The notes under the pieces were generated by a model. That model was not told where the DNA came from. It searched no databases and saw only the letters and a list, made by a program, of their open reading frames with translations. Position numbers and translations under genes: made by a program. A stretch of 64,000 nucleotides of DNA, from positions 434,001 through 498,000 of the forward strand of contig JBBPFI010000006.1 in NCBI GenBank assembly GCA_037974965.1, read 5' to 3'. Shown in pieces: positions 3,313 through 34,205 of this stretch. Each line of letters starts with the position of its first letter. Within the stretch, counting starts at the first letter, position 1. The DNA is from Dacryopinax spathularia (taxonomy: Eukaryota; Basidiomycota; Dacrymycetes; Dacrymycetales; Dacrymycetaceae).

Positions 3313-4467
3313 ATGTCTATTCTTCGCACTGCCGTCGGGCGTTACAGTATTGGTAAGTCCATTATGAGGAAAAGACGGTGGCAAGGACGAACATTGACAT
3401 GTCTCACCGTTAGCACGCCCAGTGCTGAAGAGTATTGTGCCCCGTACAACATTTCAAAGTGTGTCAAGTTCAGCACGTAGTTTCGTGGGACCGCTACCCA
3501 ATCTCGCAGGTTATCGAGCCATCCAGACGATACAGACGAAGAATGGACTAGTCGAGTCGCCTCTTCCAATCGAGATCGCACAGAATGGCAGCAACCAGAA
3601 GAGCCTGGAGACTCCGCGCAACCGCGCAGGTCAGTAGAACCACATTCTACGTATGAGCTGAGCTCCGCTGACTATGCCCGACACGCAGAATGGATGCTTA
3701 CCACGCTGGACAAGATCGCCAACTGGTCACGGCAAGGATCGATGTGGTCGTTGACATTCGGTAAGTCACCACACCATTCCTCTCGCGACTCGCATGCCCT
3801 CCTACGGCACTAGGCTGACCCGACCATTCTTCTCGAAGGCTTGGCCTGCTGTGGTGTTGAGATGATCCACATCGCCTCGCCACGGTACGACCAGGACCGG
3901 TTTGGGTTCATGTTTCGTGCCAGCCCGAGACAGGCTGAAGTGCTCATCGTTGCTGGGACGCTGACGAACAAGATGGCGCCTGCATTGAGAAAGTTGTACG
4001 ACCAGATGCCTGAGCCCAGTGAGTCTTTCTTCTCCCTGTCATGAGTGTGGGGTGCCAGCGGCGCGGTGATTGAGACGGTTGTGTGACGACCTATGGTAGA
4101 ATGGGTTATCTCGATGGGATCATGCGCGAACGGAGGAGGGTATTACCATTATTCGTACTCCGTCGTGAGAGGATGTGATCGTAAGTCCTGCTCGCCCATC
4201 GTTTTCACCTCCCGAAGCTAATAGAGTTCTTAAGGCATCGTTCCTGTCGACATCTACGTTCCCGGGTGTCCACCGTCGTGAGCTCTCCGCCCGTGCTTGA
4301 ACCATCTTGCCAAGCTGATCTCGACTTCGACAGGCCCGAGGCGCTGCTGTACGGCATGCTTCAGTTGCACAGGAAGATGAGGAAGGCGCGGAAGGCTACG
4401 CTTTGGTCAGCGGTGTGCCATCCGTCAACGGTGTACATACTGATCAGTGGCCAGGTACCGTCGCTGA
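3313..4467 (+). CDS. NADH:ubiquinone oxidoreductase 20 kDa (PSST/NDUFS7) subunit, copy 1
   Basis: Complex I subunit of the mitochondrial inner membrane that carries iron-sulfur cluster N2 and contributes to the quinone site. Exons: 3313-3352, 3414-3629, 3689-3760, 3839-4018, 4100-4180, 4235-4277, 4334-4405, 4455-4467; 238 residues if 3414-3629 is one exon. Core motifs are intact: [40 protein letters not shown] and the C-terminal WYRR. All four N2 cysteines (CC, MGSC, PGCPP) remain. The N-terminus is variable and looks like a mitochondrial presequence. Changes from the usual sequence include A to G after CC, KW instead of RW after MPEP, and LHRK instead of LQRK. At 3477-3509, where copies 2 and 3 have an intron, a 33-nt GT...AG segment stays open in frame. 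Intact, so not an obvious pseudogene. Confidence 0.88.
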
Positions 4468-5946
4468 AGTTTCCCGATCATGGAACGTTCCGCAGTGCAA
4501 TGGGGCGGGCCGCTTCTTGTCGAGAACTTGTGTCTGTACGATATCCAGCGAGGGTTTCGGCGTAGGAAGATTGAGAGGGCGAGATGGGGGCGAGTCTCTA
4601 CGCCAAACCGAGTGTATCATTTGATCACGGTACTTTGTTTCGGAACGAATGATATTGTTCTGGCGGCCGGGTCCCGAGGTAGCCTCTATCTTGAAGATTT
4701 GCCTTTATTACCCGCCGAGGCTATAACCTGCGCTTCTGGTCGCGCCTGTATAGGACTCAAGCTGTCGACTGTTTCTCCGATCACAGACCTCGTGACAACC
4801 GCCTCGTTGCCCGGAAGGATTGGCAGACGCTCAAGCATGGAGAACCGATGATGACCAAGAAACTGAGGTAAGCAGAAGCAAGGCCAGAATTGCGATGCAG
4901 GCCGTTCCCGCGAAAAAGCAAGACCCGTGTCATCGATCCTGGCTTGTCTCTCTTCGCCGCTTCCCCTCATCCTTCCACCACCGCATCATTTCGTTGAAGC
5001 AGACAACAAAACTTGCTGTTCTTTACGGCACGGGCGAATAGTCAACCAGCAATGCGATGGAGCCAAAGACGTGATGTTAAAGCAAGGTGTGCGGGGTCGA
5101 GCAGGCCACAGAGGACAGAAGCTATACAGCAGGATCTTGCCGCTCTTTGCATATTGCATACTGCGGCTTGTGGCTCCTTCGTTGTAATTTGGCCCAGAAG
5201 ATTGCTGATAGTGACATCACCGTACCCGCCATTGCTGGCGTGGTCTATCCTGTAGAAATCGGTAGTGCGGGGTAGGGTCGGGAGACATCGGCGCGGTTTG
5301 TGCGACCCTGACCCGGCGTCACCCGTGCGCGGTGCGACGGACGCCCTCATGGAATCATCGCGGGTGTTTTGGTCAAAAGTGTGGGGTCGGAGTAGGCCTC
5401 ACCGTCCTCTTTCGATGAGAACGATGTTCGACGCTACAAGAGACCGCACGTCGCCCAACAACTCGGACAAGTAGCGCGGACAGTCCGGTGGAATTTGAGT
5501 TAAGTCTCAATGTAGTAGGAGCGTGCGCGTGTCGACAGGCCTGGATGACGCGAGTTCAAAAGGTGAAACCACACCAGCGTGTCTAGGGAGACAAGGTTGG
5601 CCACTTGGCGGTCGCAAGGGAACCACGGGCAACTCGGGCCGAGCTGACCCCTCATTGGCGTGCACCGGCCGCCGTTGTTGTCATGCGAACTTGCCCTCGA
5701 ACAGCAGCTTGAGTGCATAGGTCGCTTGGAAAGATGGAATGATGACGCCGGAGGTCTTCTGACAAACGGGAAGAGCCGGACAGGTCCCGGATCCGCGCGG
5801 GACGTAGGGTTGGCTTGGACAGTGCACGGGCCTGCCGTGCTGAATGCTGGGACGCAACCATCAGGAGCCCTACTACTCGAGTCAGCGGTTAGCCATAACA
5901 CCTATCCTTTGGGCTACCTTGTCAACGCTTCGTACTGAGCAGAAGG
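4468..5946. other. Intergenic between NDUFS7 copies 1 and 2
   Basis: No gene recognised. Positions 5182-5946 are a diverged second copy of 2417-3312 and should contain the copy 2 promoter. The rest (4468-5181) has only short open frames without recognisable motifs. Confidence 0.55.
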
Positions 5947-32733: not shown

Positions 32734-33083
32734 AGAGGATCTTTTTGAGTTCGAGCGTTCGGGCGGTGTTGTTTCGAGAGTGCATTTGTATATTATGCAA
32801 TTTATCGTTTTCTTTTGTGGGTCAACTATCTTGTCTTGTCCTCCTAGTTGGAGAGTTTCGTTCTGCACTATTAGCGAAAACATAAGCGACCGCTACGAAC
32901 AGATGACTTGAAGTTCCAGCTTGTTTTCCTATCGGCTCGCGTTTTGCCCGCGGCGAGATATGAGATGGCCGTCGAAGCGAAAGCGGGTCATCGGTGGCGC
33001 TGCGGGAGCTTCCATCGCTCAACCAATCGTCACAGTCGGCTTTCTCACCTCCCTCACCGTCGTCGTCCTTGCTCTTCACCACA
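32734..33083. other. Intergenic between PEX5 and NDUFS7 copy 3
   Basis: 350 bases with no coding frame supported; should hold the PEX5 3' end and the NDUFS7 copy 3 promoter. I see no resemblance to the upstream regions of copies 1 and 2. Confidence 0.5.
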
Positions 33084-34205
33084 ATGTCTGCGTTACGAAC
33101 GGCCATGTTGGGCCGTATAGGTGTGTAACCCAACCTATGGGCGCCATAGTGTGTACTGATGACAAGAAGTAGCGCGTCCCATGGCTCGTAGCATCACTTC
33201 GACGGTTGGGATCCATGGTGCGTATCAGCCTGACCACGACAAGTTCCTGCGTTGACGGTCATGCAGGCGTTCGCTCGATTCAAACAACACCGCCGGCTGC
33301 TGCGGCACCTCAGGGGCCGTCAAGCCAGCCAAGAACACCTATGCCGTCGGATCCTAGCCCAAGCACGACTACGACTGGCATTGAACTTGCACAGCAGGGA
33401 AGCAACCAGTTGAGCTTAGAGACTCCGAGAAACGCTGCTGGTACGCCCTCACCTTCTGGATAATGACGAGTATCTGACTGCATGGATATAGAATACTTGC
33501 TGTCCACCTTCGACAAAATTGCCAACTGGGCTCGTCAGGGCTCCATGTGGCCTATGACCTTCGGTGAGTGACTGGGAATGGACTTGCATCGCATGTATGC
33601 TAACATTTCCGAAGGACTGGCCTGTTGCGCCGTGGAGATGATGCACATGGCTGCTGCCCGCTATGACCAAGATCGACTCGGTATCGTTTTCCGTGCTTCG
33701 CCGCGGCAGAGCGATATCATGATTGTTGCCGGGACATTGACGAACAAGATGGCACCTGCGCTGAGGAAGGTGTACGATCAGATGCCCGAGCCGCGTACGT
33801 ATCCGGACGATCCGCCGGATTAGCATGTTGCTGATGGAAGATTGATAGGATGGGTAATCTCCATGGGTTCTTGCGCCAATGGTGGAGGGTACTATCACTA
33901 CTCGTACTCTGTCGTCCGTGGTTGTGATCGTACGTTCTCCCGTACCCTCGGCCCACATCAGCTGATCCGCCTTTAGGCATTGTTCCGGTCGATATCTATG
34001 TCCCTGGCTGCCCTCCAACGTGCGTTATTCCATCGCGTGAAGTTGGCCATAGCCTAATCTCTTATTCAGTGCGGAGGCATTGCTCTACGGCATGCTGCAA
34101 TTGCAACGTAAGATGCGGAAGAGCAGGAAGGGTGTGCAATGGTCTGTCTCCTTTTGATCCGCCTGTGATGAGTGATGCTGATTCTGCTGTAGGTACCGCC
34201 GGTGA
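33084..34205 (+). CDS. NADH:ubiquinone oxidoreductase 20 kDa (PSST/NDUFS7) subunit, copy 3 (canonical)
   Basis: Complex I subunit with the N2 iron-sulfur cluster. Nine exons: 33084-33120, 33173-33217, 33267-33440, 33492-33563, 33615-33794, 33849-33929, 33977-34019, 34070-34141, 34193-34205; 238 residues. This copy has the sequence expected of the family throughout: [120 protein letters not shown] (quoted in part across exons). Cys113, Cys114, Cys178 and Cys208 are the N2 ligands, at the family spacing. It is the best candidate for the ancestral, housekeeping copy; copies 1 and 2, 26-30 kb away, share its intron positions but are more diverged. Confidence 0.93.

Follow-up and report, generated by a model that had tools for sequence, protein, structure and literature searches.

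Three intact NDUFS7 genes in the basidiomycete Dacryopinax spathularia, two of them a diverged tandem pair

The last iron-sulphur cluster on the way to ubiquinone sits in the NDUFS7 (PSST) subunit of mitochondrial complex I, a core subunit that is usually regarded as invariant. The nearest case among known systems is that of Drosophila, which has two NDUFS7 genes, ND-20 (CG9172) and the testis-biased ND-20L (CG2014) (PMC6445954); one passage of that paper calls the latter testis-only, and another describes high expression in both testis and imaginal disc. Knockdown of ND-20L is reported to have muscle effects (PMC9087048), and the available part of PMC10036122 does not mention the gene. More generally, a survey of sixty fungal species found duplications in 66 (76%) of the proteins of oxidative phosphorylation (OXPHOS) considered, and the same source describes yeast Cox5 isoforms whose expression depends on whether growth is aerobic or anaerobic (PMC2803194). 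In Zymoseptoria tritici, a paralogue of a quinone-site subunit, alt-SDHC (ZtSDHC3), forms a working alternative enzyme (PMC6941823). Here we describe three intact nuclear NDUFS7 genes (c1, c2 and c3) in a 64,000-nucleotide stretch of the genome of the fungus Dacryopinax spathularia (contig JBBPFI010000006.1, positions 434,001 to 498,000, hereafter the window), of which c1 and c2 form a diverged tandem pair that probably encodes an alternative form of the subunit.

The genes lie on the forward strand of the window at 3313-4467 (c1), 5947-7095 (c2) and 33084-34205 (c3), and their spliced models encode proteins of 221 (with intron 2 removed), 224 and 238 amino acids, respectively. Once the GT-AG introns are removed, the frames are free of stops and 666 (intron 2 out), 675 and 717 bases long, stop codon included; they end exactly at the coordinates given by an earlier note on this DNA, at a terminal WYRR found likewise in the mouse and pig protein chains (we take the species of the PDB chains used, namely mouse, pig, Chaetomium and Yarrowia, from their entry codes). 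Both c2 and c3 consist of nine exons, and their eight introns match in position, with phases 1,1,1,1,1,1,2,2; seven of these are matched directly in c1. Such closely spaced, short introns are in keeping with a basidiomycete. The remaining one has a probable counterpart in a 51-bp GT..AG segment of c1 (3459-3509, + strand), which is open in frame, lies in phase 1 and agrees in position and phase with intron 2 of the other two genes; because both c2 and c3 carry an intron at this place and in this phase, the segment is taken as probably spliced. If retained, it would make the c1 presequence 17 residues longer, a possible alternative form of the protein.

The NuoB models TIGR01957 and NF005012 are matched by all three proteins. 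Full-length c1 scores 238 bits with the former (cut-off 142.7) and 258.2 bits with the latter (cut-off 116), the core of c3 reaches 215.8 bits in the test for the NDUFS7/PSST/NuoB family, and the cut-off of PF01058 is exceeded by one exon of c2. The four cysteine ligands of cluster N2 (the equivalents of Yarrowia C85, C86, C150 and C180, tandem pair included) are present in all three copies. We take C150 and C180 to be the two ligands that complete the set. For C85 and C86 this role is described in PMC8042128, and the same tandem cysteines provide a check on the numbering used below, in which the Yarrowia position equals the c3 position minus 28, as read from the alignment. The N-terminal 36 positions of the copies contain five to six Arg/Lys and at most one acidic residue, a composition that fits mitochondrial presequences. 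The earlier note was thus right about three intact genes with common intron positions and phases (the eighth of c1 being probable) and with all four N2 cysteines; as for the diverged presequences it described, the linker does differ most and is longer in c3, and the N-terminal part is still alignable. The observation of three genes is far beyond chance.

The mature parts of the proteins (167 residues) are 91.0% identical between c1 and c2, and either one shares ~82% of its residues with c3. Along the complete frames, identity at third codon positions is 0.514 for c1-c2, 0.423 for c1-c3 and 0.386 for c2-c3, and synonymous sites are saturated in the comparisons with c3. For the mature parts of c1 and c2, nonsynonymous (dN) and synonymous (dS) divergence is 0.061 and 1.918 with the NG86 method, and 0.067 and 1.478 with LWL85, giving a pairwise dN/dS of ~0.03 (NG86) to 0.045 (LWL85), values that are non-neutral and support functional constraint. 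When neutral change was simulated 2000 times at the DNA identity of c1 and c2, the mean amino-acid identity was 0.601 and the maximum 0.683, as against the observed 0.91, and only 39 of the 2000 runs were free of stops. Purifying selection has clearly acted on both genes for a long time. With synonymous sites saturated and a mature dN of ~0.06, the artificially repeated haplotypes that the earlier note had allowed for are therefore excluded, as are pseudogenes, which the neutral simulation rejects.

The three copies differ markedly in how far they depart from the rest of the family. Near-invariant sites were defined as those conserved in at least 95% of 80 bacterial NuoB sequences (the best 80 of the 581 relatives that a search with c3 returned) and identical in four mitochondrial sequences, the only ones included; at these 89 sites c3 carries 0 changes, c2 5 and c1 7, and the bacterial sequences themselves, in a leave-one-out count, carry at most 3, with none in 54 of the 80. 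Tajima-type relative-rate tests with five outgroups assign 15-17 changes to c1 or c2 as against 3-7 to c3, with P ranging from 0.0026 (Yarrowia) to 0.093 (mouse); with Yarrowia the figures are 17 vs 3 for c1 (P = 0.0026) and 15 vs 3 for c2 (P = 0.0075). A tree was built from 23 rows, made up of 16 of these bacteria, the four mitochondrial sequences and the three copies. In it c1 and c2 are joined at 100/100 on a stem of 0.30, ~4 times the length of the c3 branch (0.073), and their own tips measure 0.089 and 0.098; support for a group of the five fungal rows is 98/91. That the third gene is canonical and the first two derived, as had been proposed, is supported. These branch lengths are consistent with rapid change along the stem and slower change in the tips, and the duplication would fall within this fungal lineage, a placement based mainly on the shared introns.

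The origin of the pair can be read from the DNA before the genes. The upstream regions of c1 (2294-3312) and c2 (4700-5946) and the 353 bases before c3 were compared with blastn, and four collinear blocks were found to be common to the first two: 2417-2436, 2563-2613, 3049-3150 and 3223-3241 before c1 (spanning 2417-3241, + strand) match 5182-5201, 5278-5326, 5748-5842 and 5869-5887 before c2 (spanning 5182-5887, + strand). The block at 2417-2436 may be part of the 3′ end of the gene preceding c1. Neither upstream region matches the 353 bases between the start of c3 and the preceding frame, and the region downstream of c1 has no match to the regions downstream of c2 and c3. The longest block (3049-3150) has a single other match in the genome, at c2, and its interpretation as a dispersed repeat was rejected, given its two genomic places only. 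The introns of c1 and c2 show weak similarity (56-73% identity, with z above 2.4 in six of the eight). Shared upstream blocks and weak intron similarity therefore identify the pair as a tandem duplication with a period of ~2.6-2.8 kb, which carried its upstream DNA along, and the set of three copies first described becomes a tandem pair and a separate gene, not three equidistant copies. The shared upstream DNA suggests, indirectly, that c1 and c2 may be regulated separately from c3.

A search of the 29.2-Mb genome (24 contigs) with the c2 protein (E up to 1) returned 18 exon-level matches, 17 of them in c1, c2 and c3. The sole match elsewhere (C17:551996-552199, E 0.054, 39%) was attributed to chance. 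A search of viral contigs gave 8 loci. All four matches of a genome search with PF01058 lie inside the three genes, so that neither search found a further NDUFS7 copy. NDUFS2, NDUFS3, NDUFS8 and NDUFV1 were each located in one genomic place (the NDUFS8 matches being under the cut-off of the model), counts that are lower bounds because only the best candidates were scored, exon by exon. Among the five core nuclear subunits searched, the expansion is limited to NDUFS7, and a wider duplication of complex I subunits was rejected on the single places of these four partners. Alternative oxidase was likewise located in one genomic place, again a lower bound. Sequences similar to nad1 occur on two contigs outside the window (C19:129333-130256 and C23:10365-11286). 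Since the four nuclear partners are each found in one place and nad1 is present, the fungus very probably has complex I. As regards the two nad1 matches themselves, the one on C19 has TGA as its only stops (seven), as expected if TGA encodes Trp, and the one on C23 contains TAA and TAG within one piece; the two places could each be explained by a pair of mitochondrial-type contigs, by an intron or by insertion into nuclear DNA.

The catalogued contacts of NDUFS7 with quinone or inhibitors are, in Yarrowia numbering, Trp77, Met90, Met91, Ile106, Phe107 and Arg108; position 106 faces a bound quinone and is reported to be important by mutagenesis, and Met91 points at the quinone head group (PMC9503403). 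All six contacts are kept in c3 (with Val at 106, as in mammals), five of the six in c2 (Met at 106) and four of the six in c1 (Ile at 91, Met at 106). Trp77, Met90, Phe107 and Arg108 are unaltered in the pair. Beside Trp77, both c1 and c2 change Pro78 and the usual Met at 79, and in both Gly replaces the Ala that follows the tandem cysteines.

Taken together, we consider it rather probable that c1 and c2 represent an old, separately regulated alternative isoform of NDUFS7 that is built into complex I. More specifically, c3 would be the housekeeping NDUFS7 subunit of the mitochondrial complex, and an old duplication of c3 in this fungal lineage would have given rise to a second form, which accumulated many more changes and nevertheless remained constrained. 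This second form would later have been duplicated in tandem, together with its upstream DNA, to give c1 and c2. Their proteins would enter mitochondria, carry the N2 [4Fe-4S] cluster and take the place of c3 in part of the complex I pool, in conditions determined by a promoter of their own; this would yield an isoform of complex I whose handling of ubiquinone is possibly altered.

Several observations weigh against this scenario, or parts of it. Many of the replacements in c1 and c2 are conservative, and several occur in bacterial NuoB as well (Met at 106 in 5 of 80 sequences, Ile at 91 in 13 of 80). Changes near quinone or N2 residues are not enriched: 9 of 52 near positions differ as against 14 of 110 far ones (P = 0.47), and with windows of 2, 4 and 6 residues the test gives P values of 0.58, 0.47 and 0.36 where both copies differ, and likewise no enrichment where either differs, so that clustering of the changes around these residues was rejected. 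Because the enrichment test is negative and several replacements are found in bacteria, an altered quinone site in the pair is at most possible. The bacterial reference set is nearest to c3, which served as its query, and the count at near-invariant sites is for this reason tilted in favour of c3. With mouse as the outgroup the relative-rate tests stay above 0.05 (P = 0.093 and 0.078), and there is little support (87/27) for the node that unites c1, c2 and c3 apart from the two ascomycetes. Finally, a slowing after the stem is unsupported by the tree, because its branch lengths are not in units of time.

The alternative that survives best is subfunctionalisation of expression only, whereby c1, c2 and c3 would be catalytically equivalent and differ in timing or amount, and the replacements would be tolerated drift. 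The mostly conservative nature of the replacements, their lack of concentration at functional residues and the shared upstream blocks of c1 and c2, with no counterpart found in the 353 bases before c3, all suit this explanation; the changes at near-invariant sites (7 of 89 in c1 and 5 of 89 in c2, none in c3, and three or fewer in any bacterium) do not, and we regard it as unlikely, albeit with a real chance of being correct. At the other end, c1 and c2 might define a second kind of complex I with a retuned quinone pocket, switched in by their own promoter, which appears rather improbable. The residues that would have to carry such retuning are Met106 in both proteins, Ile91 in c1, the changes after Trp77 and the Gly after the tandem cysteines, and their having this effect is similarly doubtful. 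Were it so, the pair would be a natural variant of the quinone site or of the N2 potential, and a core catalytic subunit would be changed modularly by gene choice, which we would count among the long shots of the analysis.

An inhibitor-tolerant isoform, similar to alt-SDHC of Zymoseptoria (PMC6941823), would replace c3 when the fungus meets a natural inhibitor of the quinone site. Such tolerance could involve the change of Met91 to Ile in c1, Met at 106 in both proteins and the changed positions 78 and 79 beside Trp77; Trp77, Met91 and 106 are catalogued contacts (PMC9503403), and 78 and 79 are merely neighbours. The absence of enrichment near the site and the unaltered Trp77, Met90, Phe107 and Arg108 speak against it, as does the gene neighbourhood. 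Pfam was scanned with 34 of the 45 coding-like frames of the window and with all 16 frames of the 20 kb to its left; 18 of the 34 and 5 of the 16 matched a family (16 and 11 did not), and no biosynthetic core enzyme was seen among these frames. The families matched in the window are ordinary ones and include zinc-finger, GH31 glycosidase, allantoicase, ureidoglycolate lyase, transposase, TPR repeats, aspartyl protease, transporters and methyltransferase, and those to its left are MDM31/32 (three frames), Mpv17/PMP22 and mevalonate diphosphate decarboxylase. For the frames scanned, a self-resistance gene of a biosynthetic cluster was rejected on these grounds, and the inhibitor-tolerant isoform as a whole we judge decidedly improbable.

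The same scan gave some observations on the surroundings of the genes. A frame matching the DDE_Tnp_4 transposase family (21228-22112, - strand) lies between the tandem pair and c3, and the frames for ureidoglycolate lyase and allantoicase, a purine-degradation pair, adjoin at 17575-19361 (- strand). Within 10 kb to the left of the window are MDM31/32-like frames (3989-5190, + strand) and a frame matching Mpv17/PMP22 (9588-9974, - strand), both in the coordinates of a left-hand stretch, L115. Both families have mitochondrial members, and their presence here is probably due to chance.

A role of c1 and c2 outside complex I, elsewhere in the mitochondrion (e.g. as an assembly or iron-sulphur protein), was among the suggestions of the earlier note and received no positive support; yeast TIM18, a paralogue of SDHD, offers a precedent for such a fate of an OXPHOS protein (PMC2803194), and set against it are the retention of all cluster ligands, the WYRR terminus, a targeting-like N-terminus and ~82% of mature residues shared with c3, which make this role very improbable. 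Nothing was found in favour of an artefact, whether haplotypes duplicated by the assembly or pseudogenes, and its probability is negligible given third-position identities of 0.51 (c1-c2) and 0.42 (c1-c3), undamaged frames and the rarity of stop-free neutral simulations (39 of 2000).

On the preferred reading of c1 and c2 as an alternative complex I isoform, their interest lies in naturally occurring substitutions at positions that hardly vary among the compared bacterial and mitochondrial sequences; such substitutions could reveal how much change N2 and the quinone tunnel can accommodate. The surprise is limited, because diverged OXPHOS paralogues are established as a principle, and the novelty implied at first was overstated in view of the second NDUFS7 gene of Drosophila (PMC6445954) and the frequency of fungal OXPHOS duplications (PMC2803194). 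No literature on several NDUFS7 genes in a fungus was recognised among the top-ranked matches, which is weak evidence of absence. Drosophila ND-20 and ND-20L are alike in that the same core subunit is duplicated and a widely expressed copy is retained, and differ in belonging to an insect with two genes, whereas this fungus has three, including a tandem pair. The alt-SDHC of Zymoseptoria is likewise a paralogue of a quinone-site subunit in a fungal respiratory complex and an alternative to the canonical one, but it belongs to complex II, is dispensable and polymorphic, and its function has been demonstrated, whereas c1 and c2 are putative subunits of complex I. The Cox5 isoforms of yeast are similar as nuclear subunit isoforms of one complex under different regulation; however, Cox5 is a subunit of complex IV, and NDUFS7 carries the terminal iron-sulphur cluster of complex I. 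Set beside these systems, the three genes of Dacryopinax spathularia are a clear new example of the established principle of OXPHOS paralogues.

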